A DNA stretch of 26,481 nt from a virus. The stretch's first letter is position 1; every line of letters begins with the position of its first letter. Positions 953-22,174 of this stretch are shown here, one piece after another. The notes below the pieces were generated by a model that did no database searches, was not told the origin of the DNA, and saw only the letters and a list, made by a program, of their open reading frames with translations. Position numbers and translations under genes: made by a program. The stretch is taken from the IMG/VR virus record IMGVR_UViG_3300011013_000071, positions 1-26,481 of that record. The stretch is one strand, 5' to 3'.

Positions 953-1338
953 TAACTCAACCCCTCTCTATCAATATCTAATTCATCGGTATCATAGGGC
1001 CACGGTACAATATCAAATAGTGGTTCCGCAGGTGTACTTGTGATTTCATCTATTCCTGTTAGAGCATCACCTATTGCGGGGTCATTAAATAAATCTTCAA
1101 AACCGTGTCTAGCCAATTTCTCTCGTTCTTCTGTGGTTTCGTTATTTCGGTCTTGTCTCCAAGCCATTTCATTCATCCAACAACCACGACAAAGGAGAGA
1201 ACCACCGCCGCCCTCACCACCCCATGCAAGACGACCTATTTTCCCACCACCACCGCAACCGTCACAAATGTCACCATAACCTTCATCATCGGGTAATTCA
1301 GTTTTGAGGAAAAGCCAAGCCTGTTCAAATGCGTTCAT
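952..1338 (-). CDS. Zinc-ribbon protein with AFEQAW N-terminal signature, 128 residues
   Basis: Seen: MNAFEQAWLFLK at the N-terminus, then CxxC pairs at C25/C28 (CDGC) and C50/C53 (CRGC) with a very Gly-rich loop between them, which reads as a zinc ribbon; then a basic-acidic helix (DRNNETTEEREKLARHGF) and an acidic C-terminus (YDTDELDIDREGLS). GGGTGA (1343-1348) lies four bases before the ATG, which overlaps the hub gene stop as TAATG. The N-terminal signature and the position of the first cysteine pair are shared with the last complete gene of the window, so the two are probably related. I recall small proteins starting like this in marine viral metagenomes, without known function. Nucleic-acid binding, host takeover or a late regulatory role are all possible. 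Confidence 0.75.
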   Translation of the reverse strand: MNAFEQAWLFLKTELPDDEGYGDICDGCGGGGKIGRLAWGGEGGGGSLLCRGCWMNEMAWRQDRNNETTEEREKLARHGFEDLFNDPAIGDALTGIDEITSTPAEPLFDIVPWPYDTDELDIDREGLS

Positions 1339-7300: not shown

Positions 7301-9719
7301 TCGATATGGTTGTTGCTTCGCTTTTTAGGCCATGTTTCACCACGACTTTGTTAGCGATAGCGTCTGAATTTGTTAAATTAGTAATTGTATGATGATTACC
7401 CGTTGTGGCATCTTTTAACTCTCCAAACTTACTATTCAATTTATGACCGTTTTCAAGAGCCACCTGCCATTTATTAATTTGAGAGGCTTTGTATAGTGTT
7501 TCTCCGTTTTCTAATGAAGTTACATAGCCAGTAATTGAACCAATAGCCGCTTCAAGTGTTATTACATTACAGGCACGATAAGCGGCTGTGGTTGTTGGTA
7601 TTGTTTTCAATAATGTGTCACGAGTAATGTTCATCCTACTATAACGATTACCACCTGCTGTTGATGCTGTTGGTGTCGATACATTACCTACTGTGGCATA
7701 TTTTTCCCCATTACTATCTAAGAATAATGATGAGTTGCCTTTTAGAACATTATTGTAATCTGCTAAAGTACCCGCACCACCAAATGCTTCGGCATCCCCT
7801 ATTTCTTTAGTGCCACCAATAGAAGCCATAACAATAGGTATATTCTCGTCTAAATGTGTTTGGGTATAATCAATGCCTGTTCCCGCAGTATAATTAACCC
7901 GTTGAATATATACATAATCACCATCAAAATAGTTTTGTAAGGTTCCAGCACTAAAGGTAATCGTATCGGGTCCCGTTGTTCTGGTAGTAATGATACCCAT
8001 ACTGTTACCATCTTTGTCAGTAGCAGTATCACCAGAAACAGCAATAAGTGAAGTTGGGTCTTGTCTAACAGTTATTGCTGTTGTAGTTCCAGACGCATAA
8101 TCACCATTTATTTGCACTTCAATTTTTTCCATTAATGGCCCCATAGTAGTTAGTGCAGTTGTTTGAGTATCGGCTATTGATGATACGACACCAATAGGTG
8201 TACCTTTTGCGTTGTATAGTGTATCTCCTTTTGAAAAATTGTTTTTTGCGGTCGTTGAAGGTGCTACAACATTAATGGTTGTTCCACCAGTAAGAGTTGC
8301 ATTACTACTAACAAAGCAATCAGTTTGATATGGCCCCATCTTATCCATTTTTGTTCCAAATTCGGGTTTCTTAATGAAAAGGTCGTCTTTTTCTTCGGTT
8401 GTTAATAATGCGTTTTGGCCGGTCCATTGGAAGGGGTCGGCTTCTGTTGAACCCATGATAGATGGGCCGTCAAATGGCATATCTGGTGGTGGGGCGGTTG
8501 GTAAATCACAGGAATTAAGACCTTCAACAGAAAACCTACTATAACCATGCCCAGTGGAATGAGCCGAAGGTTGCGCCCCCCGTGAATCATAACCTAAACT
8601 GGGTAGCCCCAAATTACCCCCATCCATAGGTTTAGCGGTCATATACCATACTGGTAGTGGCGCACCCAATCCTTGAACAATAGGGCCGCCATTAGCAGTA
8701 CCCCAATAGCCACCACCCGTAGGGGTGGGTGTTTCCCAAGACACGATAACGGTGTGTTGTTCTTCACCATCGTTTTGTACTGCAAATGTTCCACCTTCTG
8801 CGAAATTCGCTGTTGGACCAGCAGAATTCACGACATTTGTTATGTTAAAAGAAACAATATTATGGTTAGAAAGACTAGCATCGTTATTTTCTCTTTTAAT
8901 CTCCCAACCATCATAAGTTAGTGTATAATTCCCACCCGTTATTGTACCGTTTTGTGGTAAATCAGTAGGGCTACGATTATAGGTGTAAAATCTGCCATCA
9001 AAACGCCCCCCTCTAACACTATCACCTATTGTTAAAGCACATTCATTTGTTGATTGAAGATAAACATACACACCATTTATTTCTAAAACTTTACCAATAT
9101 ATGTGTTTTCAGTATAAAGTGAATCATTGGGTTTAACATGAGCCGATATATCAGTTCCAACATTAATTACTCTAGTGCTACCTTTAGCATGGTCAGCAGA
9201 AATAGCACTACTGGTAATACCTGCTGCGGCATAATGTAACTTATTATGATTAATAGTAGTATAAGAGGTAGCACCACTCATTTTTACATATTTGGCACGA
9301 AGAAAACGCTCTCGACTAGAATGTAATCCCCTTTGCCATACTCTACTTGAGTTGATAGTTGCCGCTATTAGTCGTGAAGCCTCTTCTGTTCCAAGATTAT
9401 AGGTTTTGTTAGTTCCCGCATTTGTCGAGGCTTCTGCGGCTCTTTTCAAGTCAATTATTTTGACACCTATTCTCCCGTAATGTGCGAAAGCAGTTGCCGC
9501 CGCAGTAGTATCTCCCGCTAATGGTGTTCTAATAAGAAAGTGCATTCCTTGAGAAGTGCTACCCCCCGCCCAAACAGTATCAGTGGCATCATCATATTCG
9601 GTATCGGGATATGTGAAAAACATACTGAAATAGCCGCTTGGTGGTCGGGCATTATCAGTTCCTAATGTTTGAACATTGGCGGGGTATTCACGCTTAGGGA
9701 ATGTCTTAATTTCCGCCAT
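1338..9719 (-). CDS. Giant tail-tip protein with C-terminal baseplate-hub (gp27 / late control D-like) domain, about 2793 residues
   Basis: Hub proteins form the centre of the tail tip beneath the tube. Seen: near residues 2440-2640 a succession typical of gpD/gp27-like hubs: a helix IGILDILRGLSQMDGYQLLL, strands GLLLYSPN, a NEVIIEGDKIAE segment, a helix LREANLALRMAKGILI, a SNDIQPGEIINVDF strand pair, then FAVFEAHHDY and LSNLVIGQYEKG. A Lys-rich loop (EEKKKKMGGKGDG) lies inside. The preceding ~2400 residues are beta-rich and Asn/Thr/Gly/His-rich, with several short beta modules containing GD and GxV (for example NFSKGDTLYNAKGTPIGVVSS) but no enzyme motif I can name. Another such module closes the protein (SLAVDEIDATLRF, TVTLKANNL). 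Usual hubs have a few hundred residues, so this is a hub with an enormous extension. The stop overlaps the next ATG by one base (TAATG). Confidence 0.72.
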   Translation of the reverse strand: MAEIKTFPKREYPANVQTLGTDNARPPSGYFSMFFTYPDTEYDDATDTVWAGGSTSQGMHFLIRTPLAGDTTAAATAFAHYGRIGVKIIDLKRAAEASTNAGTNKTYNLGTEEASRLIAATINSSRVWQRGLHSSRERFLRAKYVKMSGATSYTTINHNKLHYAAAGITSSAISADHAKGSTRVINVGTDISAHVKPNDSLYTENTYIGKVLEINGVYVYLQSTNECALTIGDSVRGGRFDGRFYTYNRSPTDLPQNGTITGGNYTLTYDGWEIKRENNDASLSNHNIVSFNITNVVNSAGPTANFAEGGTFAVQNDGEEQHTVIVSWETPTPTGGGYWGTANGGPIVQGLGAPLPVWYMTAKPMDGGNLGLPSLGYDSRGAQPSAHSTGHGYSRFSVEGLNSCDLPTAPPPDMPFDGPSIMGSTEADPFQWTGQNALLTTEEKDDLFIKKPEFGTKMDKMGPYQTDCFVSSNATLTGGTTINVVAPSTTAKNNFSKGDTLYNAKGTPIGVVSSIADTQTTALTTMGPLMEKIEVQINGDYASGTTTAITVRQDPTSLIAVSGDTATDKDGNSMGIITTRTTGPDTITFSAGTLQNYFDGDYVYIQRVNYTAGTGIDYTQTHLDENIPIVMASIGGTKEIGDAEAFGGAGTLADYNNVLKGNSSLFLDSNGEKYATVGNVSTPTASTAGGNRYSRMNITRDTLLKTIPTTTAAYRACNVITLEAAIGSITGYVTSLENGETLYKASQINKWQVALENGHKLNSKFGELKDATTGNHHTITNLTNSDAIANKVVVKHGLKSEATTISTSSTSTTGSQGYVTRPFRTVRAVNTETVGNLHISNEERVWDDLSVVDDTGQELVLQGGSPFGTVIKDYNFNKTRINPTDGTETILPSTPGSGIEPNMEIQLPSQDEIPGNILVRSGHDRVQAWRNMTWGMGGLTEPYPNTPGSIEANTDPNDTAAGGATQFDTHDRVLYFHPVRILHDKLATQFGLSPNANAGAVPSGSTRLFSAHRLNDHVERGSVLLDAQNGVDASFMHPHHRIRFGRQGHHFITPFTMRGTPKSLRRQLHRSHGSAYSLMFEAETENKHWGFQSAYNGGTDSPSSTLYYLDTLEAKTETYNTGSFSSDGFPLGEISRNGLPNHRKFYDDSPETSFDVLFAPGQEHTKVEGASEQTHFVSSSHGKDTSMGPYGNVAHSGPIAITAASARTVNTRHNAGEEFAINGFFLNQYLLMGGRPNPAWLQYDLAGSGATPHTYTLLGHQGGWYQPRVATELATVPPLFAHDVEMVNAAAIPIPIVENPAIDTAHFTQLSTNNDLALLKSTNTNSGATPDAFLSTWLAEYSHPALFGTSREHFMSFRYREAGMPNAVAYPAVRGLLLRNASSNSLVAGSVRTALPFERLYAFQWMQNYGYNALNAGGHGANWGERAASAVLMGHSGLREPCGTLELRQHFVKHGAVKRMSRGEGIGDGLNPRKTVSRRILDKDSTNNYIWHEVTTPENAMVAIDVSRRLPVRAWGFKTGSDALNMLSGDPNEILSTQQKIQKSARFDGGKHDSVQDIPTITLGADWRWPVAYGGVERSVPIGMVVSEHTSGEGMERLSNVAWAEGEKELGIGRVLKHSDLGVVKPTALPAGLVDSRRTEFTTTTGSSAKFLHAKSVNTGSDPIIGLNHHSGDKTLAANSVEAQTQSGSFGASVGNEFIHQRGNNLHLNAHPVDHFVNSGDNQHFPAHGWGQNLAMKNQSGASERGTMPIPLSEISDHRQVQSDLSPRLGLVVETKTERDEGKATDYEVTSTKAVSLHSDLAIGQQFPVLPSWVQQTKWTKYGASIGSITTTAANPDETYGGQSEPNQRLSKPQWSLNRDNNLGAAVLSDTSKEFKGVGVQDHWAVRGCGDLPPWGGVYILRKTWLERPDDIDASRASLKNNASGLTQNAQPVRKSADYIMRMVRPLKAFGYTTKNDVDGSVLNQDGWLLGAFSSLTEANFKHQPFTRDKRYGMFETTTAKSIGNILPITSTHDTSPTIEWPDANERDITWHLIPSANMLQHFKADASRKDNEGKIHSLIDARYSQSTHPGGGETLSQTETVYADNATLVLDPYNRRERSGIAVSKQPNYSMGILGSRGTIKFDSGTSLVVEDATNFPASGNLIIIGLSGQIPYTARTETTFTTGTRTGDCLSTGDLEGREIRFGNNANATIDSTNANLNPPTHSLVILPSFIDNSVSVSLTLANKWCGTNSDNSEVLKPNINYRGLGHYNPNDFFMATPQRFMLSNGQNSGVLSYIKGKGTGGLSDVYIDGINITESSFPPYLIDSDGKRLRIGGISSFGDGKLTTTNLKFRNLSGETIAKSGINTNEPVRVSHITAIGVRTTDAALMMMKDLGSLIPGMDLQPYRPAREQKRLDSGVYSTYSALQRSTTSSLSSYLSAHPSLKSTIEHSSIFISRAARGIGILDILRGLSQMDGYQLLLNESGLLLYSPNVFIGRDRNIGSSSGPQLIEVSGMLEMANEVIIEGDKIAENETVKGFVQDEEKKKKMGGKGDGEGVTRTARETIPGLREANLALRMAKGILIRTGQGAALIRVEGLLKSNDIQPGEIINVDFVMERIKGEFAVFEAHHDYTKGLSNLVIGQYEKGIEGLLADLQSSVSSTIDEDSTRTKERKELVFSAPIRIKAASRVMTRIVNNTRFLIGGSWRGSPTTKQLGAIGVSGGRTGVLKNGAISATTTTSLAVDEIDATLRFSPHDAVFTSANLLVGFVLSVTSTTVTLKANNLVAIPDNDELRATSARADPIGNSKSMFYRVK

Positions 9720-9720
9720 A

Positions 9721-12700
9721 TTAATCCCACACACTCCTTGCGTTGAATAGTGTTGTCACTTCTGATGGCGATAATACTTTATTCCACAGGGCAACTTCAC
9801 TTAGCCGACCAAGAAAATATGTAGGGTCATAAGGATTGGAAATAGTAGTACCGTAAAAATAAGTAGCAGGTGGGCCGTAAGTATGTAAACCCAATCCAAT
9901 CAATACCATATTTTTATCACGCCCAAATAGTGAAGTAGCGGTATGCGCCCCTATCTTAGTCAAGGCTTGATTATTTGCCAAAGCCGTTTCTATTGGTGAT
10001 TCAAATGTGATGCTTGTAGCGTTCATAGATTTTATTTTTCCGTAAAAATTACCACTTGTGGGTAATATTTGTTGAACACTATCTCCAATTGAAAAATAAG
10101 ATAATGGGCTAACAGTATCAACTGCAACAGTATCGGTACTACCCACAGCGTATGTGCCAGCAGATGGGTGATTTATTAGTGGATAAGTACCGGGTGCTAA
10201 TGGGTAGCCAATACCAATATTGATATGTGGTAAATGTGGCCCTACGGTTCCACCCCTGTATGTTGCATCATCAGTCAAAGCAATTAATGGGTTGGGTGTT
10301 GGTGTTAGTGTTTTAGCCACGGCATTGATATAACAGGTTGGCCCCGCCGCATTACTATAAGTGAATACAACATGATACCATGCGTCTTTAGCCACAGTAC
10401 CACTACTCACAGATTCAGCATGAAACGCATTTCCAGCACTATCAGTAAAATGACCTATTACCTTAAATTCGTAAGTAGTCATTGCTATTTGCTTACTGAC
10501 AATAGAAACGCCCCACGGAAACCCATTATGGTCGATTCCATGTAATACTGGCCCTGTTCCATAAGCATCTTGACTTACTGCGGGCCAAGCACCAACAATA
10601 TTTGGGTGCATGAAAAAGGAAATAGACCAAGCCGCATTAGCACCTTTCATTTCATTTAAGACATTCACAAGTGGTTTTATTTTTGGGGTAACGGGGTTAT
10701 TTTTCTCTATTTCATGGGCAGCAATATAATCAGTACCACTAAAGATAACTGCCCCCGATTCACCATCTAAAACAATAGGGCCATTCGCTGCCGTTATGCG
10801 TTGAGCAGATGCCTCCCAATCACTGTAAACCAATAATTTACTACCATGTAGTTTTTCTATGGGCAGTTTTACATGTTGATAGTTTGCATAGTCACCAGTA
10901 TAGTCGGCCAAATCTCCTAATCTAATATAAAATTGTGTTTCTTGAGATAGTAAATGACTATTTTCGGGCGTTGTTCCAGTATTGGTAAGGATTTGCCTAT
11001 GGTGTAGCCCACGATAGGTATTTTCCTTTACAGTATCAGCATTTTTTAAGTTGGAAAAGTCTAATATTGCGGCTGATGTTTGAACCTCTTGGAGATTTTG
11101 AAAACCACTATATCCAGATGGCCCCTTTGCGTAATGATGAGTGTAAAAGTCACTATAATCATTAGCGGTTCCATCACTAATATCGAAGGTGACCCCTGTG
11201 TGACCCCCACCAAAAAATAGTATTCCATGAGCATCTATTAGAGGGTGTATTAATTTGATTTCAACTTGTTTGTATGAACCATCAGAATTAACAAACAAAT
11301 CTTTCCATTTGTTACTCAATTGATTCAATGGTTGAACATCAGCAAGTGCGGCACAAGCCCCTGTTCCAGAAACCTTACAATCAGTTCCCCCTTGACCCCC
11401 CGCTACCCATCTAAAAGTACCATAATCAGTATTATTAACCAATATAGTTGCCCTATCGCTTGCTGATAAATTTCTATCAATTCTCCTAATAATATCTAAT
11501 GCTTTGCGTTCAACCCACAAAATGCTTTGAGTTTCGGGGTCATAACTTGGTAGTGTGTTGCCGTATGAATTTTTGGGGTTGAGAACAGTATTGAATGTAA
11601 TCTCTTGACCTATTCCACTATAAGTGCGTAGTTCATCACCTGCATTTTCAACTAAACCATGAACACCACCTTGAAAGGTGGTAATTGGTATGTGAGTTTC
11701 CCCATCCATTCCAATCGGCAATGGGGCAGGGAATGAACCTGCTTGATATGACCTGCTATTTGTGGCTAAAAGCCCACCATGACCCACCGCTTGAATTGGC
11801 CGATATGGATAGGGGCTATGATTACTAAACCATACTGCAAAATTACGACCAGTAGCACCGGGTATGGTGCTATGAATAACTATACTCGTGCCACTTTCCC
11901 CATCCCTACTCTCTACACCTTTACCTGCAAATGCTCTTATGTAACCCATGTGTGAACCCGTATCTGTTGAAGAAACGGTATGAGTACCCGCACTTTCACT
12001 AAACAAAAGGGGCGCATCAAAAGCACTACCGCCGTTTTCGTTTTTCGCCAAAGGGTGACTGGCTTGATTAATAGTGCGTATTAGTTCATTTACTGCTGTA
12101 TTGAAATCCGAAACTGACCCCTTACTAGCAATATCTCCCAATTTTATTCGTTGTGGGCGAACATACCAAAGGTCCCCACTACCTTTCTTACCTTGTAGTG
12201 CATAATAACTAGCCCTACATTCTATTGGTGGTAATAAGGGTAAATCATCGTTCCCGTACAAATAATTACCGGGGTCAAAAGAGAACCCTTCCATTGATGG
12301 GCCGTTGTGGATAAGAATAGTGGTATCATCATCGGGGTCAATACAAATAGAAGTTAATGGGTTTCCAATACGAAGCCCAAGAGCCTTTTCTATTGGGGCT
12401 ATGAAGGCTTGGGCCATAGTGCTTGCAGAAGTGCTTACAGCCACAGTAGCACCAGTAATTGCGGCTACTGTACCAACCCCTGCGGAGGCATCATCTGTAA
12501 GCCAACTACCCAAAGTAACAGGAAGCCCAACAATTAGTTTATTTCTTAAATCTGCTTCTGATAGTGTGTTGTTATCCCAATCTTGATATTGGTCAAAATA
12601 CATTTTATAGACATTGCTATTTTGTTCTAAATGTGAAATATGAAGTCTAATACCACGTTGTGAAATTATACCTTCCCCCACAGTTACCAAAAAACCACCA

Positions 12701-14874
12701 TCAGGTATGGTCCATTTAGAGGGTAAGGTTGTGGCTACATCAGAAAAACTACTTTCGGTAGTAAAAGGTAAGAAACTATCTACTTCAATATAAGCATCAC
12801 TACCACCTAATGTACCAGTTACAACTTCTGTTTCACCCCCTGCATAAGTATAAGCAGTAAGGTATGTGGTCGCATTTTCTCGCATACACCTTATCCATGC
12901 CTTACCACTAACAGTAGCCCAATCATTTACAGTTAAAGCCGACACTATATTTTTTAGCCCCCAGTCAATAGACCAGCGATTTTCATAGTTTTGCATTTGA
13001 GGGCGATTAATGGCGGTCATTGTGCAATCTAATGATAATTCCATAGATTGTGACGAAGGGAGGGGGGTGCGGTTATCCGTACTGGTTGCTAAACGCTTTT
13101 CAATATCAAAAAACATGGATGGGAAAAGGGGTATTTCCACTAACGCACGAGTTGAAGCATAATATGTGGATGTTTGACGGTCATTTCTCACCGAAGCATT
13201 ACCAGACCCAACAACCTTGTCTTTCCATACTGGTAAAAACGGGTGTTCGGTTCGTGAAGGGTTGATGTCTATACCACCCTGCCCCAATCCCCCCATTGAC
13301 AGGGTTACTGATGGGCTTCCTAAGTCACCAATTTCTTTTAGGGGATAACCTTCTGATAAATTGAAATCTCGTTGAGATGTTCGGTCTGAAATATCCATCA
13401 GTTGGGAACGCCCTCTCACTATAACGCCACCCTCCATTTCACCACTATTTGGTGTTATTTCTTCTATTCGCCCTTTCATAAGCATTAGTTCAATAGTGCA
13501 TTTATGATATTGGGTATCTGAATCTTGTTTTGTTAATAAAGTGGTCAAAGTGTTGGCTCTTTGCTTATTTTTTGGATGAATGAGCAATAAATGATTATTA
13601 CCTTCAATTATATTATCAATAATATCAAACTGTTCTAAAACTACTGGTTGTTGGCTCGCATAAGTATCATCTACTATTGCTACCCCCTCACCTTGAACGG
13701 ATATTGAAAGTAAATTGTAAGCAGATTTACTATCGGTGATTGGTGACCTAGTATTGGGTTGTGCAATCGGTGGCCCGTAGCCTTCGTACCTATCCCCCAT
13801 TCCCGCTATTGAATTTTGAATTACTGTATGAGCGCAATTTTCAATATTAATGAAAGGAGAACTGGTAGTATCACCACTAGGATTCATTTGAAGCATGTGT
13901 GATTTTATAGGTCTTTGAAGGTTTGTTTTGGGTATTGATATGATACCACCGGGAGAATGTATTGTAAGTGGGGTCCATGTGTTATCAACTGCACCCGCAT
14001 AGGGATAGCGCAACCAATCTATCAATGGCCTATATTCGGGGCTACCGGTTGGGTCCTCTATGTAAATGGTGTTAGCATCCGGAACTGTGCGTTCCACCAC
14101 CAACCACCCACGACTACTACTTTGATTAATCGCTTGAACATCATTTTCAGTTGTTGCATGAGAGTTAGAACCTCCTACCCCTGCCCCAAAAGCACTACTT
14201 TTCCAACCCGCCACCACTTCCCCAGTGGTATCAATAGCATTGTAATATACTAGAATTTTTGGTGGTCCACCCGCCGCTATAAGGTCGCTTGGGCTTTCAA
14301 TAATAGCAATACGACTCTCTTTTTCTGGTGTCAAATGATGCACATAATCTTCATTTGTTGGTTTTTGGGGGTCAGTAAAATCGAATAAGGCTTCTTGGCT
14401 TACATCTAAATTTTTAAGGGCAAAAAGACGCACATCTTCTACTGCTATTGCTACAATTGTGTTTTTACCCGATGATAAAACATTAGCCGACCCATCGTGA
14501 TATGAATATCCACCCTGTGCCATAATACTACTAACTTTATCACCACTACCAGTAGCAGTTAAAGTACCAATACTTGAACTGGTTTGAATATCATTAATTT
14601 CGCCTTGATAAACAGTTTGTGTGATATTAACTTTTTCATTTTTCGCTATTAATGATTCAATAGTTGTATCTTCATAAGAACTCTCAAATCTGTCAGTTAG
14701 TCCTTGAATTGTACGAGTAATTGATTCATTTTTTGGGCTTGGCATTTTCTTTAAGAAAAAATGCCCACTGACACGATTGTAAGTGGTTAAACCACACATG
14801 CCCGGAAAATCATCACTAGGTTCTAACAAATCGTTAGATATTGGCACATATCCTTCTGATGGTTCTTCTGGCAT
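9721..14874 (-). CDS. Giant tail-tip protein with C-terminal laminin-G-like domain, 1717 residues
   Basis: A very large virion protein, probably part of the tail tip. Seen: no signal peptide; beta-rich, Thr/Ser/Gly-rich sequence throughout; a middle block (MLMKGRIEEITPNSGEMEGG, LMDISDRTSQRDF) of baseplate-like character; a helix NTAVNELIRTINQA near residue 960; and a C-terminal LamG-like domain from about residue 1418 to the end (AAWSISFFMHP, AWYHVVFTYSNAAG, CYINAVAKTL, GRLSEVALWNKVLSPSEVT). That domain is interrupted at about residues 1568-1645 by a separate beta module (LSYFSIGDSVQQI, YGKIKSMNATSITF). GGGGT lies upstream of the ATG in the end of the previous gene. The order after distal tail and adhesin fits a receptor-binding or tail-tip scaffold. 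The first 900 residues match no family I recognise. Confidence 0.7.
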   Translation of the reverse strand: MPEEPSEGYVPISNDLLEPSDDFPGMCGLTTYNRVSGHFFLKKMPSPKNESITRTIQGLTDRFESSYEDTTIESLIAKNEKVNITQTVYQGEINDIQTSSSIGTLTATGSGDKVSSIMAQGGYSYHDGSANVLSSGKNTIVAIAVEDVRLFALKNLDVSQEALFDFTDPQKPTNEDYVHHLTPEKESRIAIIESPSDLIAAGGPPKILVYYNAIDTTGEVVAGWKSSAFGAGVGGSNSHATTENDVQAINQSSSRGWLVVERTVPDANTIYIEDPTGSPEYRPLIDWLRYPYAGAVDNTWTPLTIHSPGGIISIPKTNLQRPIKSHMLQMNPSGDTTSSPFINIENCAHTVIQNSIAGMGDRYEGYGPPIAQPNTRSPITDSKSAYNLLSISVQGEGVAIVDDTYASQQPVVLEQFDIIDNIIEGNNHLLLIHPKNKQRANTLTTLLTKQDSDTQYHKCTIELMLMKGRIEEITPNSGEMEGGVIVRGRSQLMDISDRTSQRDFNLSEGYPLKEIGDLGSPSVTLSMGGLGQGGIDINPSRTEHPFLPVWKDKVVGSGNASVRNDRQTSTYYASTRALVEIPLFPSMFFDIEKRLATSTDNRTPLPSSQSMELSLDCTMTAINRPQMQNYENRWSIDWGLKNIVSALTVNDWATVSGKAWIRCMRENATTYLTAYTYAGGETEVVTGTLGGSDAYIEVDSFLPFTTESSFSDVATTLPSKWTIPDGGFLVTVGEGIISQRGIRLHISHLEQNSNVYKMYFDQYQDWDNNTLSEADLRNKLIVGLPVTLGSWLTDDASAGVGTVAAITGATVAVSTSASTMAQAFIAPIEKALGLRIGNPLTSICIDPDDDTTILIHNGPSMEGFSFDPGNYLYGNDDLPLLPPIECRASYYALQGKKGSGDLWYVRPQRIKLGDIASKGSVSDFNTAVNELIRTINQASHPLAKNENGGSAFDAPLLFSESAGTHTVSSTDTGSHMGYIRAFAGKGVESRDGESGTSIVIHSTIPGATGRNFAVWFSNHSPYPYRPIQAVGHGGLLATNSRSYQAGSFPAPLPIGMDGETHIPITTFQGGVHGLVENAGDELRTYSGIGQEITFNTVLNPKNSYGNTLPSYDPETQSILWVERKALDIIRRIDRNLSASDRATILVNNTDYGTFRWVAGGQGGTDCKVSGTGACAALADVQPLNQLSNKWKDLFVNSDGSYKQVEIKLIHPLIDAHGILFFGGGHTGVTFDISDGTANDYSDFYTHHYAKGPSGYSGFQNLQEVQTSAAILDFSNLKNADTVKENTYRGLHHRQILTNTGTTPENSHLLSQETQFYIRLGDLADYTGDYANYQHVKLPIEKLHGSKLLVYSDWEASAQRITAANGPIVLDGESGAVIFSGTDYIAAHEIEKNNPVTPKIKPLVNVLNEMKGANAAWSISFFMHPNIVGAWPAVSQDAYGTGPVLHGIDHNGFPWGVSIVSKQIAMTTYEFKVIGHFTDSAGNAFHAESVSSGTVAKDAWYHVVFTYSNAAGPTCYINAVAKTLTPTPNPLIALTDDATYRGGTVGPHLPHINIGIGYPLAPGTYPLINHPSAGTYAVGSTDTVAVDTVSPLSYFSIGDSVQQILPTSGNFYGKIKSMNATSITFESPIETALANNQALTKIGAHTATSLFGRDKNMVLIGLGLHTYGPPATYFYGTTISNPYDPTYFLGRLSEVALWNKVLSPSEVTTLFNARSVWD
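9724..9728 (-). promoter_or_regulatory. Ribosome binding site deciding the start of the hub-fusion gene
   Basis: GGGAT lies four bases before ATG 9719, with the TAA of the preceding gene between them. The alternative in-frame GTG at 9734 would overlap the preceding gene and has only a GGAG about ten bases further on. I prefer MAEIKTFPK as the N-terminus. Confidence 0.55.
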
Positions 14875-14876
14875 TT

Positions 14877-17800
14877 TTAGACCCCGTATTTATCTTCAAA
14901 CCATTGTTGCATATCATCATCTTGTGCATCTGTTAATAGTTGTGGCATCCCTATAATTTCGTGAACAATGAAACCCGGTGGTGCTAATTCATTAATGTCG
15001 CTTGTAACACCAGTTCCGTCAACAACTTCACAAAAAAAGTCAACCCCCCCTTGCCTATTTGCGCCAGTGTTTAGATATTTATGGCCCGAAGCCAATGTTA
15101 TACCATATTTTTCAGCCATTTGACCCTCAATCAAATCCCTTTCTGCATTGGTTAGTTGTCTATTATATTGTAATACTTCACCGATATAGCCATCTAATTT
15201 GTAAGTTGTGGGGGTATAACCCACACAATAAGGTTGAGATGTTGCCAATTTATGGTAGTTGACGGTTGCAGTACCCGCCGATGCACCATTAATTCTTAAT
15301 TCACAAGAGGCCGCACCACCAACCCCATTACCACCCGAAATAGTAGCGGTTAAAACTACTGGTGTATCTACCACAGAAGTACCCGTTGCTGCTTGTATTG
15401 CTTGCCAAGCAGAACCATCACCTATCCAAAATTCCCATTGGTTGTTTGAACCAGTCATATCGCTGTATAAATTCCATCCTTTGTATGTAGCATTATTACG
15501 ATTACTTACTATTCCTTCATAAGTAGCATTATCAGCACTTGTTGTCGTTACTACAATAACAGTAATATCATTAGTATTCAAATCTGCATCATAAGCCCTT
15601 TCCAAAAAGTCATTACCATCAAACTGAATTGCTGGTTTATTATTAAAAATACTAGATGGGGAACGGATAGTTGGCCGGTCTGTTCCCGCTGATGGTCCAA
15701 AATCGTGATTATTGCCACTTCTATCCACCCAATCAGCCAATGCTAATCCATCAAATGATGGATTATTAAAGTGATTAGCGTCTAAATGTAATACTAAACC
15801 CGAACTTGGTAAAAGCCCACCATAATCAAATTGAACAGGTGCAGTGGGGGTCCACCCAGCCACCGCTGCTGCACTACCCCCGGTATTTTGTTGATTTCGC
15901 CATTTCCAAGTGGCATTAGTGCCGTGGTCTATTCGTAGTGAAACAAGAGCCGGAATACCTGCTGTTGGTCTTTGTGTGGTTGGACCTGCAAAGGCCGCCG
16001 TACCACCCGTAGCGGTTAATTTTGGATTCGGGGTCACGGCGTGACCATCATCCAACAATAATTTGAAGTTATCATTAATTTCACTACGCATTAAAGTCAA
16101 AGGGGTACTGGCTGTATAAGTGGGTGTTATGACATAATAAAAGGTCCAATCACCGTCAGCCATATTTGCCCCTGTGGAGGGATATAATAGTGTTAAGTGT
16201 TCAGAAGCAAAGGGGGCGGCTACTACGCCCGAAACATCTGGTATTCTACCAAAAGTCAATGGCCCATTGACACCATGCCCATTAACCCAACCCGACCCAC
16301 CATAGTATTGTTTTCCAGATAAATAGTTAGGAATAGTTGTGGTTGCGTGAACAGTCGGATTACCACCCGGCCATACCATCGGCCCTGTTGGTGGTGTTAG
16401 GGCTTCGGAGGTGGAAACGGCAACCAAACCTGCTCGATTGTTAGCATTACCACAATTTTGTTTCCAACGCCATCCATCACCCCACCCATATAGGGCATAA
16501 TTTGTTGATGAAGCCACAATACCCGTTGCTTTGTTGGTCCACCAAAAAACATAATCATCATTTGATACAACATTTGACCCGTTGTATTTTTTGATGGTTG
16601 TTTTATCATTTGCATCAAACCATAAAGCCACTAAGTGGTCTAAGGGTGGCTCATAAGAACCGGCAGACCCCGAAACACCCGATGTTTGTGTTTGTGTATT
16701 AGTATTAAAACGAGATTTAGTAGCAATAAAATAGGCATCATTCCCATTACCAGTAATATCACTAAATCGTTGGTTTTGTGTTAGTCTGGCCCTTGTCATT
16801 TGGCCCGTTGGTCTTGTTTCTGTCTTTCCGGGGTCGATTACTAAATCCCCATTACCGAGAGTAAACCATACAGGGGTATTGTCAGGGTGACCAAATAGAA
16901 ATCCCTGTGTATTTGGGTCATTATTTGAGGCTAATAAGGTACTTTGAACAACTACACATGGTGGCCTACCAAGTGACCCATTACCATTAAAATCAATAGC
17001 CACAATTCTCATTCTTTCAATGGGATTTACCATTGGGTCAAGGTCAACACCCCCTTCGGGCGAACTATCATGGTAGCCAAAGGAACTTACAGTACCACCA
17101 GTCATTGGGTCTGTTCCACTCACGTTTATTATAGCATTCAAATTAGAAACAGGAATACCGTCTGAATGATAAGTGGATTTTGTCACTTCGGCTTGAATAT
17201 CAAGAATACCACTAGCCCACCATGTTTGTAATTGTAATTCTTCAACAGGTATTGATAATATATGCGAAGCCAACAATTCTAAAGCAGCAGGTCGTTCTAT
17301 CACACCACCCATAACACTACTAGGAAAATCTCGTATTGCGAAATACCCATAATCATAACCAGCGGCTAGAGTAAGCGGGTGACCACCAGCAGGGTTTACA
17401 GGCGCAGTTACTTCTATGGTAGTGAAATCATATCCTATACACACCATAGGTAGGGGCATTAGCCCCTCATTCTCTCTCCCCACCCCATCCTTACCTTGAT
17501 GGGGGTGGGCGGGGTTGCGATTATTAAAAAAATACAAATCGGGTATATCATCTTCATCTTCAAAATTCCATAAACCAACCGCATCTGGTAAAACTGTAAA
17601 CGGTTGCATTTTTGGCTCAATAATCCCCCGACTTACCCTAACGCTCTCTATTACACCACGAAACTCTCCACCTTGACCACCAATAAATAAATCAGATGAG
17701 CCAGAACGTATAATTCGTTCTTCACCACCAAAATCCATATCTGCAACCAAATCAGTATTAATATACACTTTCATTCGTTTTCCTGTAAATTGAGCATTAA

Positions 17801-18299
17801 CATATAATAATTCACGAGATGGTAAATCAAGGTCATGTGGCTTACTTTCTCCTGTTGCATAAGACCCCCAATTAGTATTCGTAACATTGGGGAAATTGTA
17901 TGCCGATACCACCCTTTCAGCAGCCAAACTACCTTTTGAAGTAGTTGTATATAAATCAAATGTAACAGGACCGGGTTTGTGCGGCTCTCCTACTTTAAGC
18001 GTAAAACAATTGGGTTTATGGAGAATAACACCACCCTTATCAGGTATGAAAAATGATTCGATTGTAAATGGGCCGATTATATTATTAATGCTATTTCCTT
18101 CATTTGGTATGTGCCGTTTACCTATTTTGGTTTCATTACTTTCATAGGATGATACTTTATTACTACCACCTGTTTTTTCACTATGTGAAGCATTAAATAA
18201 ATCCACACCGCTTTCACGAAACGCACCAGTAGGAACTACTAAACCATCAGTATAGCCATTTAGCCTCACGGCTTTAGAATAAACACTATGTATTGGCAT
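14877..18299 (-). CDS. Tail-tip adhesin-like protein with three laminin-G-like regions, about 1140 residues
   Basis: Probably a tail-tip or fibre protein that binds a surface glycan or receptor. Seen: a first concanavalin-A/LamG-like region at about residues 75-225 (FTIESFFIPDKGG, RMKVYINTDLVADMDFGG, FRGVIESVRVSRG); a divergent one at about 550-810 (HLVALWFDAND, WTFYYVITPTY); and a clear one at about 833-1063 (GLVLHLDANHF, WVDRSGNNHDF, PAIQFDGNDFLERA, YIGEVLQYNRQLTNAERD, MAEKYGI). A related ending, DAQDDDMQQWFEDKYGV, closes the protein, so the last LamG unit may be followed by a partial repeat. LamG domains are calcium-assisted carbohydrate or protein binders, and recur in phage fibres. No enzyme active site is visible. 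The TAA precedes the next ATG by two bases. LamG assignment is firm for the third copy, weaker for the others. Confidence 0.75.
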   Translation of the reverse strand: MPIHSVYSKAVRLNGYTDGLVVPTGAFRESGVDLFNASHSEKTGGSNKVSSYESNETKIGKRHIPNEGNSINNIIGPFTIESFFIPDKGGVILHKPNCFTLKVGEPHKPGPVTFDLYTTTSKGSLAAERVVSAYNFPNVTNTNWGSYATGESKPHDLDLPSRELLYVNAQFTGKRMKVYINTDLVADMDFGGEERIIRSGSSDLFIGGQGGEFRGVIESVRVSRGIIEPKMQPFTVLPDAVGLWNFEDEDDIPDLYFFNNRNPAHPHQGKDGVGRENEGLMPLPMVCIGYDFTTIEVTAPVNPAGGHPLTLAAGYDYGYFAIRDFPSSVMGGVIERPAALELLASHILSIPVEELQLQTWWASGILDIQAEVTKSTYHSDGIPVSNLNAIINVSGTDPMTGGTVSSFGYHDSSPEGGVDLDPMVNPIERMRIVAIDFNGNGSLGRPPCVVVQSTLLASNNDPNTQGFLFGHPDNTPVWFTLGNGDLVIDPGKTETRPTGQMTRARLTQNQRFSDITGNGNDAYFIATKSRFNTNTQTQTSGVSGSAGSYEPPLDHLVALWFDANDKTTIKKYNGSNVVSNDDYVFWWTNKATGIVASSTNYALYGWGDGWRWKQNCGNANNRAGLVAVSTSEALTPPTGPMVWPGGNPTVHATTTIPNYLSGKQYYGGSGWVNGHGVNGPLTFGRIPDVSGVVAAPFASEHLTLLYPSTGANMADGDWTFYYVITPTYTASTPLTLMRSEINDNFKLLLDDGHAVTPNPKLTATGGTAAFAGPTTQRPTAGIPALVSLRIDHGTNATWKWRNQQNTGGSAAAVAGWTPTAPVQFDYGGLLPSSGLVLHLDANHFNNPSFDGLALADWVDRSGNNHDFGPSAGTDRPTIRSPSSIFNNKPAIQFDGNDFLERAYDADLNTNDITVIVVTTTSADNATYEGIVSNRNNATYKGWNLYSDMTGSNNQWEFWIGDGSAWQAIQAATGTSVVDTPVVLTATISGGNGVGGAASCELRINGASAGTATVNYHKLATSQPYCVGYTPTTYKLDGYIGEVLQYNRQLTNAERDLIEGQMAEKYGITLASGHKYLNTGANRQGGVDFFCEVVDGTGVTSDINELAPPGFIVHEIIGMPQLLTDAQDDDMQQWFEDKYGV

Positions 18300-18301
18300 A
18301 T

Positions 18302-19564
18302 TCAAATCCCCAGTAGTTGTTCACAAGCAGCGAAAGTGAGATTGTAAAGCCAAACAGAATCACCCGCTTCATAACTTGGATTGAAAGTTTGAACTACCCC
18401 CGGAATGGCTATCCCCTGTCTAAAAAATGGGTTTGGCCTAACACTTTCACCACCTATTACATCAATTGGGTCAAATGATGTAGTGTTTTTTTCCGCAGCG
18501 TAATCAGTTCCCGGTCCAGAAGGTAAAATAAATTGCCTTAATATTTCATTTGCACCACCAGTAGCGGTTACCATAGATTCGTAAGGTATTCGTATTCCAA
18601 CAATATATTTTTTAACGGCATCGGATTGTGATATGCGTAAAAAGGTAGATACATCTAATGATGATAGTGAATCCGGCATCTCTATTAAATCACCCGTAAA
18701 TGATTGGGTTGATAACATACCCCCACCGGGTGAAGCATTTATGGTCATATTAATAAGGTCTTGAATTTTATCCCCTTTGCTCATTTTAGTTCCCGAAACA
18801 CCATCAGTAAAGGCGGTTGTTGTGTAAAATGAACTAGCCCAATTTTGTGTTGTGCTTACACCAATTGCGCCTGTTTTCACTATTGGTGTATTACCATCAC
18901 TATCTTTAGTAGTATTTGTTAAAGTTATCTTTTCGTTTGTTAAAGCGGGTATTGATTGGTCTGTTGAACTATTCAAATTATTCCCAGTAGTTTGAGTTAT
19001 AGTGAAAATACTAGAAATAGCAGTTGTAACAGTATTTACTTTTACATTACCTCCCGTTAGGGCGGTGTTAATTGCAGTAGCAATATCACCTGTATTGTTT
19101 ATTGTTCCACTAATATCAACTGGAACAATGCTTTTTGTCGCCACAGTTGGTGATAAAGAGCCAGTAGCATAAAACTGCAATGTGATGTTTTCACCCAACC
19201 CTGCCGTCATTTGACCTGCTGATTTGAAAACTATTTGTTTACCCCCCAAAGCCGTCACCATTGCAGCAATATTAGCATTACCCGCTTCGTCTTGTTGTTG
19301 TGTGAACCACGAAGAAAATAAACCAGTAGGGCGTGATAAATCAAAATGTGCTACTGCCCCCGTTGAACCACTAACACTATCATCATCTCTTAAAATCCCA
19401 TCAACAGTAATATTCAATGTGTTTGTATTCAAGTCAAGACCTGCCCTTACACCATAAATCGGTATAGGCCATACCGCCACCCCTCTTGTAACTTGAAATG
19501 CTATATTACTTGCTTCTAGTTCTATAATTCCACCGTCTTTTCGTATTAATTGAATTTTTGGCAT
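18302..19564 (-). CDS. Distal tail / baseplate-like protein, about 420 residues
   Basis: Proteins encoded right after the tape measure usually form the ring (Dit-like) joining the tail tube to hub and fibres. Seen: a beta-rich N-terminus (IQLIRKDGGIIELEA, AFQVTRGVAVWPIPIYG, LDLNTNTLNITVDGILRDD); a Thr/Ala/Asn-rich middle from about residue 115 to 250 (DIATAINTALTGG, FTITQTTGNN) that looks like an inserted surface domain; and a C-terminal part (KGDKIQDLINMTINA, DAVKKYIVGIRIPYESM, RPNPFFRQGIAIPG, GDSVWLYNLTFAACEQLLGI) that appears to complete the N-terminal sandwich. I see no clear family signature, so the call is mainly positional. Its TGA is followed after two bases by the next ATG. Confidence 0.5.
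   Translation of the reverse strand: MPKIQLIRKDGGIIELEASNIAFQVTRGVAVWPIPIYGVRAGLDLNTNTLNITVDGILRDDDSVSGSTGAVAHFDLSRPTGLFSSWFTQQQDEAGNANIAAMVTALGGKQIVFKSAGQMTAGLGENITLQFYATGSLSPTVATKSIVPVDISGTINNTGDIATAINTALTGGNVKVNTVTTAISSIFTITQTTGNNLNSSTDQSIPALTNEKITLTNTTKDSDGNTPIVKTGAIGVSTTQNWASSFYTTTAFTDGVSGTKMSKGDKIQDLINMTINASPGGGMLSTQSFTGDLIEMPDSLSSLDVSTFLRISQSDAVKKYIVGIRIPYESMVTATGGANEILRQFILPSGPGTDYAAEKNTTSFDPIDVIGGESVRPNPFFRQGIAIPGVVQTFNPSYEAGDSVWLYNLTFAACEQLLGI
18306..18311 (-). promoter_or_regulatory. Ribosome binding site deciding the start of the 1140-residue gene
   Basis: GGGGAT lies six bases before ATG 18299, within the last codons of the preceding gene. A TTG at 18305 is in frame but too close to the motif, so the protein most likely begins MPIHSVYSK. 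Confidence 0.6.
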
Positions 19565-19566
19565 AC

Positions 19567-21111
19567 TCAAACACCCCTACTAAAACCACTACCACGAGAA
19601 CGGCTCTTGAATACTCTTCCTACTTCCTCACCAACTAATCGGGCTATTTTTCGTGGGTCGCCATTAGCACCAGTCACATTGATATTTACGGTTGTTTCAC
19701 CACCACCAGTACCAGCACCATTAACAGTAACAGGGATGGTGCGGCCATCAGGTAGTGGAACAACTGCTTCTGTTCCATGTAGTGTCATAGGATAACCAGT
19801 TGAAGGACCAGATGCGATACCCCCTCTAGCCATTCCGGGGGCATCATCACCACCGAAACCGAAGAAACCACCAATACCATCAACAACCCACATAACAGCA
19901 TCTATTAATGGTTGGATATAATCTAAAAGATTGTCTATCATTTCACTACCATAGGTCCATATTCTTGAAAATGCGTCTTGAATTGCGGTCCAAACACCAA
20001 AAATTATTTCTTTGGCCTTTTTGGTATCGCCACTTAATACCGCTACAATTGCTCTAATAACACCAACAACAGTAGTTAGAACTATTCCAATGAAGGTTAA
20101 GACCATTTTGAATCCACTCATAAATGCCTTCGCTAAGGGTTTAATATACGGCCAAATCCATTTAATAACTTTAATAACTAATGCAATTATTTCTCCCGTA
20201 GCCATTGCTACTGCACCTACAAGTTCCCCTATCACACTTATTGCATAAACAAGAAAATCAATCATTCCAGAATCTTCAAGGTAAGCAACAAAATCAGCCC
20301 ACAAATCAGTTAATATGGTTATGAATTCTTCCACATCACTAGCACCAAAGGCTTCCATAATGGAATTCAAAGCAGACATAAAACCGTCATAAATATCAGT
20401 AAAGGCTGTAATTATTGTTTCAACTATCCCTGCCTCAACAAAAGCACCCAATAAAAGACCTATTGAATCATAAACGGACCCATAAAACCTGAAATAGAAA
20501 TTCATTATTTCAGTAAGGGTAGGTATAACATCCATTCCAATACCCGCAGCATCGAGTTCGGGCAATACAATATCATTAAAGGCTGCTTTTATATCGTCAA
20601 TGGCTATTTGTAAGCCAGCAAATATTTCCCCAATAATAGCCAAATCTTCTAACCATTTCCTTAAAGAGCCACCACCCTCATCAAAGGCAGCGGTAAATAG
20701 CATTAGACCCCCTACTACTGCAAAAATCAAACCTATAATTGGCAATATACTACTTAACATTCCCATAAATAAGTATTTTGTTGCACCAAGAACCTTTGTT
20801 AATGGCATAAATACCTTTGTTAAAAGACCAGTTGAAGCACCAACAACGGCCATTGAGCCACTTAATTTCTTTGTTGCTTCACTAGCCTCTTCTGCACCCT
20901 CTCCCACATCTCCACCAACATCACCAAAAGTAGAACTGATACTTTTTAATGCCATATCCCATTTCATATATGTTGTATAAAGTGGCCCTAATGCTTTCAT
21001 TAATATTCGGTGTTTATCGGGTAAGACTGTAAGAATATCTGAATACTGTTGGAGAGTTTTTACCGTATTAACAGTATCAAGAGCCATCCCTGCGGTCTTT
21101 TCACTAGCCAT
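19567..21111 (-). CDS. Tail tape measure protein, 514 residues
   Basis: The tape measure fixes tail length and leaves the tail during infection, often inserting in the host membrane. Seen: a helical N-terminus, a hydrophobic pair at about residues 113-143 (MLSSILPIIGLIFAVVGGL), a long run of hydrophobic and amphipathic helices to about residue 410 (including MVLTFIGIVLTTVVGVIRAI), then the typical C-terminal signature near residue 430, ARGGIASGPSTGYPMTLHG followed by TEAVVPLPDGR, and a strand-rich end (TTVNINVTG). The ARGGI...LHGTEAVVPL pattern is characteristic of phage tape measure proteins. At about 0.15 nm per residue the tail would be near 77 nm. No lysozyme or peptidase domain is visible. 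GAGG lies upstream of the ATG, which overlaps the T frame. Confidence 0.92.
   Translation of the reverse strand: MASEKTAGMALDTVNTVKTLQQYSDILTVLPDKHRILMKALGPLYTTYMKWDMALKSISSTFGDVGGDVGEGAEEASEATKKLSGSMAVVGASTGLLTKVFMPLTKVLGATKYLFMGMLSSILPIIGLIFAVVGGLMLFTAAFDEGGGSLRKWLEDLAIIGEIFAGLQIAIDDIKAAFNDIVLPELDAAGIGMDVIPTLTEIMNFYFRFYGSVYDSIGLLLGAFVEAGIVETIITAFTDIYDGFMSALNSIMEAFGASDVEEFITILTDLWADFVAYLEDSGMIDFLVYAISVIGELVGAVAMATGEIIALVIKVIKWIWPYIKPLAKAFMSGFKMVLTFIGIVLTTVVGVIRAIVAVLSGDTKKAKEIIFGVWTAIQDAFSRIWTYGSEMIDNLLDYIQPLIDAVMWVVDGIGGFFGFGGDDAPGMARGGIASGPSTGYPMTLHGTEAVVPLPDGRTIPVTVNGAGTGGGETTVNINVTGANGDPRKIARLVGEEVGRVFKSRSRGSGFSRGV
19572..19578 (-). promoter_or_regulatory. Ribosome binding site deciding the distal-tail gene start
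   Basis: AGGGGTG lies seven bases before ATG 19564, inside the last codons of the tape measure gene. The other in-frame candidate is a TTG at 19570 with worse spacing. The ATG follows the TGA stop by two bases, so translation is probably coupled. Confidence 0.65.
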
Positions 21112-21442
21112 CGTCTTTCAGCCTCGCATTCATTCGTTCAAAGAAATCAGTATCACTTGTAGTTCGAACAGCCCTACCCTTTGTGTTACCGAAACCCTGT
21201 TCACGCTTTACTTTATTTATAGATTCGGCTTCAATCTCCTTAAAAACAGACAAAGTAAAATAATCCAACATTACCCGTTCAGGTGTTAAATTATCCCATG
21301 AATGGGGTGGGCATTTGAAAAATTGACCTAGAAAAAAGGTGGGTAAGGCGTGTGCCAGTATTGGTATTTTTTCAATACCAACACTCAAATCACCCTCTCC
21401 GTCCCAAGTCATAAAACTACGAACATCATCAAGGGTTATACC
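21104..21442 (-). CDS. T part of the tail assembly chaperone GT, made by -1 frameshift
   Basis: In lambda-like systems the GT fusion binds the tape measure through G and the tube subunit through T. Here the T frame is open upstream of its first ATG (21412) right through the slippery site, reading GITLDDVRSF before MTWDGEGDL. The fused product would be 121 residues of G plus 112 of T, about 233 in all. Seen in T: HALPTFFLGQFFKCPPHSWDNLTPE, a YFTLSVFKEIEAES helix, and a basic C-terminal part ending ERMNARLKDDG. The ATG at 21412 has no good ribosome binding site, which argues against independent translation. The stop overlaps the tape measure start by 8 bases. Independent translation from 21412 is the alternative. 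Confidence 0.75.
   Translation of the reverse strand, partial: GITLDDVRSFMTWDGEGDLSVGIEKIPILAHALPTFFLGQFFKCPPHSWDNLTPERVMLDYFTLSVFKEIEAESINKVKREQGFGNTKGRAVRTTSDTDFFERMNARLKDDG
21358..21384 (-). repeat. Inverted repeat: 11-bp stem with 5-base loop in the T frame
   Basis: In the mRNA sense (minus strand) GTGTTGGTATT pairs with AATACCAATAC around the loop GAAAA. Eight base pairs are perfect, then come one G-U wobble and two more pairs. It starts 57 bases after the slippery heptamer, much further than the usual 5-9 base spacer, so a role in frameshifting is doubtful. Confidence 0.6.
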
Positions 21443-21804
21443 AAAGGGCCAGCAACACCGCCAGCCAATCCCTGCATCAATGAATCAAACGAAGGTAATA
21501 ATGATTGAATCGCCTCTCCTACTTCTGGTTTGAGATTCAGTAGTTCTGACTTACTCAAAATAGGGTCAGTGCGCTCAATACAAGTGCTGTAAACAAATTC
21601 CCAATATCCACCAAAATCAATATTAGGGGCCATATCCCCTTTACTATTAGGTGTAATACTAACAAATCGTGTTAAAGCATTTTGTCGTTCAATCCAAGAA
21701 AGGGGTTTAATCCATAAGGCTAGTTCCCCGAAGGGGGTATCAACTGTATGCCTAATTGCATCATTTCCTACTACTAAGTCACTCGCTTTCGCTTTCTCCG
21801 TCAT
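21436..21804 (-). CDS. Tail assembly chaperone, short (G-like) product, about 122 residues
   Basis: G-type chaperones coat the tape measure protein and recruit tube subunits; they are not kept in the virion. Seen: a mainly helical protein with an N-terminal TVDTPFGELALWIKPLSWIERQNAL segment (short strands, then a helix), a FGGYWEFVYSTCIERTDPI block, and a final helix FDSLMQGLAGG. Length, position directly before the tape measure gene, and the shift site near its 3' end are those of phage lambda G and its analogues. The TAA at 21436-21438 comes one codon after the slippery heptamer. The 5' end overlaps the SAP gene, so translation is probably coupled. The sequence itself is divergent, so the call rests on the combination of order, frame arrangement and size. 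Confidence 0.75.
   Translation of the reverse strand: MTEKAKASDLVVGNDAIRHTVDTPFGELALWIKPLSWIERQNALTRFVSITPNSKGDMAPNIDFGGYWEFVYSTCIERTDPILSKSELLNLKPEVGEAIQSLLPSFDSLMQGLAGGVAGPLV
21442..21448 (-). promoter_or_regulatory. Programmed -1 ribosomal frameshift site, CCCTTTG
   Basis: Read on the minus strand the G frame is GGC CCT TTG GTA TAA. It contains C CCT TTG, an exact X XXY YYZ heptamer in the zero frame, with the stop one codon later. The -1 frame is open across the site and continues to 21104 with no stop. Slippage would give ...AGPL-GITLDDVRSFMTW.... The site lies exactly where tail G/GT frameshifts occur. Confidence 0.85.
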
Positions 21805-22174
21805 TTTCATCACCATCAGTTATTGGTTCGGTTTCTTCACTTTCTTCAACTGATTCATCATCGGCAATTAATCGAGCAACAATTTCTGCTTTTGTTCCAC
21901 TTACTGTTAGCCCACGCTGACTACACAAAACCTGTAAATCGGTTTTGGTTGTATCTTCGTAAGTCGTTGGTTCTGTGTTAGCAACGACTGGTGTTTCTGG
22001 TGTTGAAGGAGGTGGGGCGGGTGTTTCAATGTTATTGTGAACGGTAATACCACTAGCCGATAGGCCAGCCCCCTCCACAATACCTTTGTCTGTTATCATC
22101 CAATTAAGTAATTCTCGCCTTCCGGCAATCGTTACGAACCCTGTTAGCCTTACCATTGTTATCAACCCTATCAT
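21779..22174 (-). CDS. SAP-domain protein with acidic tail, up to 131 residues
   Basis: Seen: an N-terminal part of about 45 residues (MVRLTGFVTIAGRRELLNW), a Pro/Thr-rich linker (ETPAPPPSTPETP), a SAP-like helix-turn-helix at about residues 77-108 (TDLQVLCSQRGLTVSG, TKAEIVARLI), and a very acidic Glu/Asp/Ser tail. SAP and the related HeH/LEM motifs usually bind DNA, and also occur as small modules in phage structural proteins. An in-frame ATG at 22156 (MVRLTGF) is preceded by GGGTTGATAACA and may be the real start. The gene lies between the tail tube and the tail assembly chaperone, where most siphoviruses have nothing or a small tail protein. The end overlaps the chaperone start by 26 bases. 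Role unknown: a minor tail component or assembly factor are both possible. Confidence 0.7.
   Translation of the reverse strand: MIGLITMVRLTGFVTIAGRRELLNWMITDKGIVEGAGLSASGITVHNNIETPAPPPSTPETPVVANTEPTTYEDTTKTDLQVLCSQRGLTVSGTKAEIVARLIADDESVEESEETEPITDGDENDGESESE
21808..21814 (-). promoter_or_regulatory. Ribosome binding site deciding the chaperone start
   Basis: GGTGATG lies three bases before the ATG at 21804. Earlier in-frame ATGs at 21816 and 21810 lack such a motif, and the one at 21810 lies inside it, so the start at 21804 (MTEKAKASDL) is preferred. Confidence 0.55.

Follow-up and report, generated by a model that had tools for sequence, protein, structure and literature searches.

Xu, Hendrix and Duda are said to have reported in 2004 that a -1 frameshift is conserved in the tail assembly genes of tailed phages. 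The two lambda products, gpG and gpGT, and the conservation of the shift are described in PMC5009743; this paper, like all those cited here by PMC number except PMC10768690, is represented by excerpts, and statements about these papers refer to the excerpts. For viruses of haloarchaea, -1 sites have been predicted in HVTV-1, HCTV-1 (GGGAAAC), HCTV-2 (AAAAAAC) and HCTV-5 (GGGAAAG), together with a +1 shift in HSTV-2 (PMC5009743, PMC8211752). A further -1 site, GGGAAAT, has been predicted in Hardycor1 (PMC7911831), while HF1-like viruses, which have no conventional slippery sequence, would need a +1 shift (PMC7230728). In archaeal cells, the fucA gene of Saccharolobus solfataricus has a studied -1 site, consisting of a slippery heptamer and a putative downstream stem-loop (PMC8211752). 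In the excerpted reviews, the case for archaeal -1 frameshifting consists of a single cellular gene which has been studied, plus a small number of predictions from sequence. The present analysis concerns two overlapping genes, denoted G and T, and the heptamer CCCTTTG at their junction, in IMG/VR virus record IMGVR_UViG_3300011013_000071; positions 1 to 26,481 of the record, a stretch of 26,481 nucleotides (nt), are referred to as the window.

The region very probably codes for a pair of tail assembly chaperones of a tailed virus, produced in the lambda manner as G and, by a -1 frameshift, as a G-T fusion. In common with lambda, a small G and a T precede the tape measure gene, the slippage would take place near the end of G, and T has no conserved start of its own. 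Unlike the lambda GGGAAAG, the heptamer is CCCTTTG and does not vary in the relatives found; a putative hairpin is present in about half of the 46 representative relatives defined below, the host appears to be archaeal and no sequence similarity to named families was detected. With HVTV-1, HCTV-1, HCTV-2, HCTV-5 and Hardycor1 the virus shares the probable affiliation to archaeal tailed viruses, the location of G and T before the tape measure gene and a -1 heptamer predicted from sequence; the haloarchaeal sites, however, differ from one another, whereas a single heptamer is fixed here in all representatives. The fucA site is similar in being a -1 shift in an archaeon, with a slippery heptamer and a putative downstream stem-loop, but it belongs to a cellular gene, features a stretch of A at the site and does not serve to make two structural products in a set ratio.

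A first-pass annotation of the window had proposed the lambda-type G/GT arrangement, which is now supported by the preservation of the heptamer, by the lack of a conserved start for T and by the chaperone-like fold predicted for G. Its description of the junction holds in sequence, phase and coordinates: the minus strand reads ...GTT GCT GGC CCT TTG GTA TAA CCC TTG ATG..., the G frame ending with GGC CCT TTG GTA TAA, and C CCT TTG at 21448-21442 fits X XXY YYZ in the right phase. The -1 frame, said to be open from before the site to 21104, was found at 21484-21104 in the stop-to-stop listing. Three in-frame ATGs are available for G, at 21816, 21810 and 21804. The last is preceded by GGTGAT and aligned with the MAEKA start of the relatives; it yields the proposed lengths of 122 residues for G and 233 for the fusion, while a start at 21816 would yield 126 and 237 (125+112) residues. 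Within the fusion T is translated from 21442 to 21107, for 112 residues, and the junction reads ...AGPL-GITLDDVR....

Taken alone, the window is weak evidence for a signal, because in-phase heptamers are common: 53 of the XXXYYYZ type were counted in the 8628 codons of its 14 genes (0.6% per codon), and the chance of finding one within the 16-codon overlap is roughly 10%. CCCTTTG itself occurs in phase twice more, at codon 940 of gene 9721-14874 and at codon 734 of gene 14877-18305, probably by chance within these long genes. Relatives were collected from IMG/VR. Searches with single proteins detected 6 and 8 loci, while alignment-based searches detected 46 T loci and 37 G loci; every one of the 46 T loci, and each of the 35 G loci examined, has the heptamer in phase, starting 10 nt ahead of the G stop. 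One pattern of the alignment-based T search (PFGIT...) spanned the junction, and for this reason the search was repeated by using wider profiles and patterns located elsewhere in T and G. At least 80 loci were obtained for each gene, and the union of the two lists contains, by reading, at least about 81 contigs, many of them near-identical. Among the matches listed, CCCTTTG begins 10 nt before the G stop in 80/80 T and 80/80 G loci. For one locus, L273, the pattern match starts ahead of a stop which precedes G; the G of this locus likewise ends with CCCTTTG...TAA.

Clustering at 90% reduced the set to 46 representatives, with a minimum pairwise identity of 34%; at 70%, 22 were left. Between positions -12 and +19, nothing is unvarying in 46/46 except CCCTTTGG and the first base of the stop. 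The surrounding codons are free to change: the one preceding CCT may be GGC, AGC, GAC, GCC, AAC, TCC, CGC or ACC, always with C at the wobble position, the one separating TTG from the stop occurs in ten forms, each beginning with G, and the stop itself is TAA in 40 cases, TGA in 4 and TAG in 2. A codon alignment of 28 sequences contains 226 wobble columns, of which 5 are unvarying, three of them in the heptamer and two at tryptophan codons. Given codon usage, the choice of codons at the site is highly improbable, with a naive value of 1e-27 for 18 representatives below 70%, uncorrected for phylogeny. The alignment of homologues, suggested as a check in the first-pass annotation, thus revealed that CCCTTTG is kept at this place in every relative found, which makes the case for a frameshift beyond the chance level of a single sequence.

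The same set of relatives was used to weigh other explanations. T might be a separate protein, translated from an internal start or by termination-reinitiation, the heptamer being incidental: the T frame of the window contains an ATG at 21412, at a distance of 26 nt from where the G stop begins, an ATG at T codon 12 is found, as in the window, in 5/46 representatives, and a TTG at T codon 8 in 15/46. Neither start, however, is general. In 15/46 representatives no ATG, GTG or TTG occurs within the first 27 T codons, and 17/46 either lack an ATG in T or have the first one no earlier than codon 58. The protein is conserved from the slip site to the first start; in those 15 representatives T codons 2-11 are conserved at the protein level, with mean pairwise identities of 0.64, 0.66 and 0.48 at codon positions 1, 2 and 3. 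As a separately started T would also leave the CCCTTTG of every relative unexplained, this explanation is considered very unlikely.

Even less probable is that CCCTTTG is kept merely because two reading frames overlap. The overlap is real, ranging from 13 to 112 nt in the relatives, and the -1 codons at the site encode P-F-G in 46/46 representatives. Yet the first position of the heptamer is the wobble base of codons for seven amino acids and is C in all 46, and CCT is only one of four synonymous codons and TTG one of six, accounting elsewhere for about 30% of the prolines and 33% of the leucines, respectively. In addition, the P-F encoded in the -1 frame lies upstream of any T product, so that selection on protein sequence would not act on it unless frameshifting takes place at the site. 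Transcriptional slippage or a +1 shift, the latter thought to serve some haloviruses such as HSTV-2 and the HF1 group (PMC8211752, PMC7230728), is scarcely credible as the means of joining the frames, as none of the 46 representatives has a run longer than four bases from -3 to the stop, all of them have T in the -1 frame, and the +1 frame past the heptamer meets a stop at a median distance of 4 codons (at most 69).

According to the frameshift reading, most ribosomes would translate G through to its stop. A minority, with CCU in the P site and UUG in the A site, would slip back by one base at both sites together; pairing would change from CCU to CCC and from UUG to UUU, the stop of G would be missed and T would be read, giving the G-T fusion. 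The downstream hairpin would pause the ribosome, presumably an archaeal one, and raise the slip rate. By analogy with lambda, G would coat the tape measure protein and T would recruit tail tube subunits. The occurrence of slippage and its frequency are both inferred here.

The hairpin, unmentioned in the first-pass annotation, follows the heptamer in the window after a spacer of 5 nt; stimulatory structures are reported to start 5-8 nt downstream (PMC4066793). Its stability was evaluated over a 51-nt stretch beginning at the third translated T codon, relative to synonymous recodings preserving the T protein; this comparison provides most of the support for the hairpin. In 28 representatives the mean z was -1.87, with p<=0.05 in 15/28, against mean values from -0.63 to +0.35 for seven other windows within G and T of the same sequences. 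In the 18 held-out representatives the mean z was -1.25, with p<=0.05 in 6/18, against -0.15 to +0.22 for five other windows. Altogether p<=0.05 was not reached in 13/28 and in 24/46 representatives. In about half of the representatives the hairpin is more stable than the protein-preserving shuffles. In 22/46, a stem with six or more long-range pairs begins 5-8 nt past the heptamer, and a few others have a strong stem which starts earlier.

Pairing in a fixed register was counted in 24 of the 28 sequences, leaving out L040, L046, L083 and L089, which differ in length or lineage: 65.7% of the cells are paired, against 46-55% when the register is slid. The fixed-column covariation score of the same 24 was not above shuffles, 95 of 500 being as high. 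For 14 of the 24, picked because they fold in the fixed register, the measures beat shuffles, a circular choice which makes the result count for little. By eye, the lineage with the YEDLV motif is mostly devoid of the hairpin; two of its members, L180 and L183, have a strong one 7 nt past the heptamer. The hairpin is thus likely to be a stimulator in the lineage of the window, but not a universal part of the signal.

Upstream of the heptamer, a GGTG is present in 27/46 representatives. At the glycine 11 nt upstream, GGT is used for 28 of 35 glycines in the 46 representatives and for 11 of 16 in those below 70%, an excess with a naive P of 0.0014 relative to 30% usage; in other GGN-G contexts of the latter representatives GGT already accounts for 42 of 98. 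The duplex energy with the archaeal 16S tail averaged -7.2 kcal/mol against -7.0 for codon shuffles in 28 representatives, with no excess. A role for GGTG as a Shine-Dalgarno-like element is only weakly suggested.

The nature of G and T was investigated by using AlphaFold models, with a predicted local distance difference test score (pLDDT) of 84 for G and of 80 for T, which is helical. A Foldseek comparison of the G model with BFVD gave five matches at E<=0.001. They include R4TKL2, annotated as 'Tail assembly chaperone' of the haloarchaeal virus HHTV-2 (E 7e-6), a Salmonella phage tape measure chaperone (E 9.9e-4), an uncultured virus protein and an uncultured archaeal virus protein. In VIA-align the top row for G is 3klu (YqbN), which we take to be an XkdN-like tail chaperone, with a Z of 6.2, values under 8 being no proof. 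By its BFVD matches, the predicted fold of G resembles that of tail assembly chaperones.

Several results weigh against the chaperone and frameshift reading. At E<=1 no PHROG or Pfam match was found for G, and no relevant one for T, and a tblastn search of G and T against 50,697 phage records gave no match at E 0.01; a search of genome contigs with T also revealed no relative. Tail chaperone families diverge fast, and for this reason the profile results for G and T are not decisive. The best-ranked BFVD match of G (E 9e-7) is an unnamed protein, the match to R4TKL2 has a root-mean-square deviation of 10.0 and a template modelling (TM) score of 0.5-0.6, and neither the G model against PDB nor the T model in the fold search gave anything at E<=0.001. 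Given the lack of a PDB match, the fold of G is assigned from predicted structures and annotations only. The hairpin is not universal, as 24/46 representatives fail the stem criterion, some merely through an earlier start of the stem, and RNAalifold detected no common structure in 28 gapless sequences, the pairing register differing between lineages. Both this result and the modest fixed-column covariation are explained by paired bases which differ between lineages and by a register drifting by a few bases. The archaeal host is deduced from relatives. Finally, YYZ is UUG and would be mismatched at its third position after the slip, and the efficiency may therefore be low. In favor of the frameshift reading, C_CC.U_UU.G has been found in E. 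coli to shift at more than 0.10% without stimulators (PMC4066793).

Over 26.2 kb the window shares 99.96% identity with a 52.8-kb record, which is syntenic with a 100.9-kb relative (G005). G005 contains a family B polymerase, a thermosome above the cut-off, a PriL (PF04104) just above it and a protein like the RFC small subunit, which is its best match but under the cut-off. In the 52.8-kb record, the protein at the PriL position is 69% identical to the G005 PriL and is unmatched by the Pfam model. PolB was found in 6/18 records. The virus-encoded thermosome of a relative (L104, 18054-19643, plus strand) fits NF041082 with 567.5 bits. Of 39 genome contigs with matching thermosomes, 38 are titled archaea and one bacterium; by E-value, the best match is a metagenome-assembled genome titled Nanoarchaeota (48%), and by segment identity one of Poseidoniales ranks first (51%). 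On account of the archaeal-type genes of the relatives and of these thermosome matches, the host is very probably an archaeon, Poseidoniales being only a lead. Tail tube and G, moreover, link the virus to HHTV-2. An archaeal host had been only a condition in the first-pass annotation, and is now well, though indirectly, supported through the G005 gene set and the HHTV-2 links.

An ascription to Magrovirales or Aoguangviridae was considered and dropped. The MCM_OB domain (PF17207) was found in 0/18 records, some of which are fragments and leave its absence uncertain, while the same search matched in 4 archaeal control genomes; Aobingvirus, in contrast, encodes an MCM helicase (PMC10768690), and the virus is therefore not filed in Magrovirales. 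A scan of the window and of 12 stretches detected no tRNA. In the excerpts of the magrovirus literature the sole mention of frameshifting is a reference title on cobalt chelatase, and those of the survey PMC10160649 do not mention frameshifts. For CCCUUUG as a frameshift site, the single match in the excerpted literature concerns West Nile virus.

HHTV-2 is among the closest counterparts. Its 152-residue tail assembly chaperone, gp47 by length, is the best named fold match of G, and its tail tube is matched with an E of 4e-6 and 25% identity over 271 columns. The HHTV-2 tail tube is 323 residues long; for the N-terminal two thirds of the window protein no match was found. In HHTV-2 (KC292024, L148 6244-6756) the frame of gp48 is -1 relative to gp47, the 28-nt overlap of the two is open, and they are annotated as separate genes; unlike in the window, no canonical X XXY YYZ is visible by eye in this overlap. 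The end of gp47, G GAA AAC TGA, may be a non-standard slippery site.

The locus is a strong addition to a known kind, as publications already predict -1 frameshifts for viruses of haloarchaea. What is new is a probable hairpin and a heptamer which stays fixed throughout a broad family of viruses whose hosts are very probably marine archaea. More tentatively, and more likely wrong than right, marine archaeal viruses, perhaps of Poseidoniales, may carry a frozen -1 signal which sets a fixed G:GT ratio on the archaeal ribosome through one efficient tRNA pair. The signal would be made up of the Shine-Dalgarno-like GGTG 7 nt upstream, an unvarying C CCU UUG and a stop one codon on, to which most members of the two main lineages would add a hairpin placed 5-8 nt past the heptamer. 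If so, Pro on CCU and Leu on UUG would be the only efficient slippery tRNA pair in these hosts. An unvarying site in many metagenomic genomes, combined with a hairpin, would offer a comparative system for slippage of the archaeal ribosome, and the G/GT rule of tail assembly would be extended to viruses whose hosts are probably marine archaea and whose chaperones have no sequence match among named families.

The features of the locus are reported in Table 1.

Table 1. Features of the G/T region and neighboring genes; positions refer to the window.
Feature	Position	Strand	Evidence or note
G, short tail assembly chaperone (probable), 122 residues	21436..21804	-	GGTGAT before ATG 21804; fold resemblance
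G stop codon TAA, one codon 3' of heptamer	21436..21438	-	sequence; position kept in relatives
Slippery heptamer C CCT TTG (predicted)	21442..21448	-	in-phase X XXY YYZ; unvarying in 46/46 representatives
T frame (-1)	21104..21484	-	stop 21106-21104; without conserved start of its own
Putative stimulatory hairpin	21392..21436	-	5' arm ACCCTT 21436-21431, 3' arm GAGGGT 21397-21392
GGTG, possible Shine-Dalgarno-like element	21456..21459	-	7 nt upstream of heptamer
Tape measure protein, 514 residues	19567..21111	-	phrog_58 tail length tape measure protein, E 6.1e-15
Tail tube protein, 764 residues	22268..24562	-	residues 494-756 match HHTV-2 tail tube
131-residue gene with SAP domain near C-terminus	21779-22174	-	PF02037, E 1.1e-8

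The genes are arranged in the order tail tube, SAP-domain gene, G, T and tape measure. The SAP-domain gene, located between tail tube and G, overlaps the start of G, and the start of the tape measure gene overlaps the end of T. Two very large genes, at 1338-9734 and 9721-14874 and encoding 2798 and 1717 residues, are found downstream of the tail genes on the same strand.

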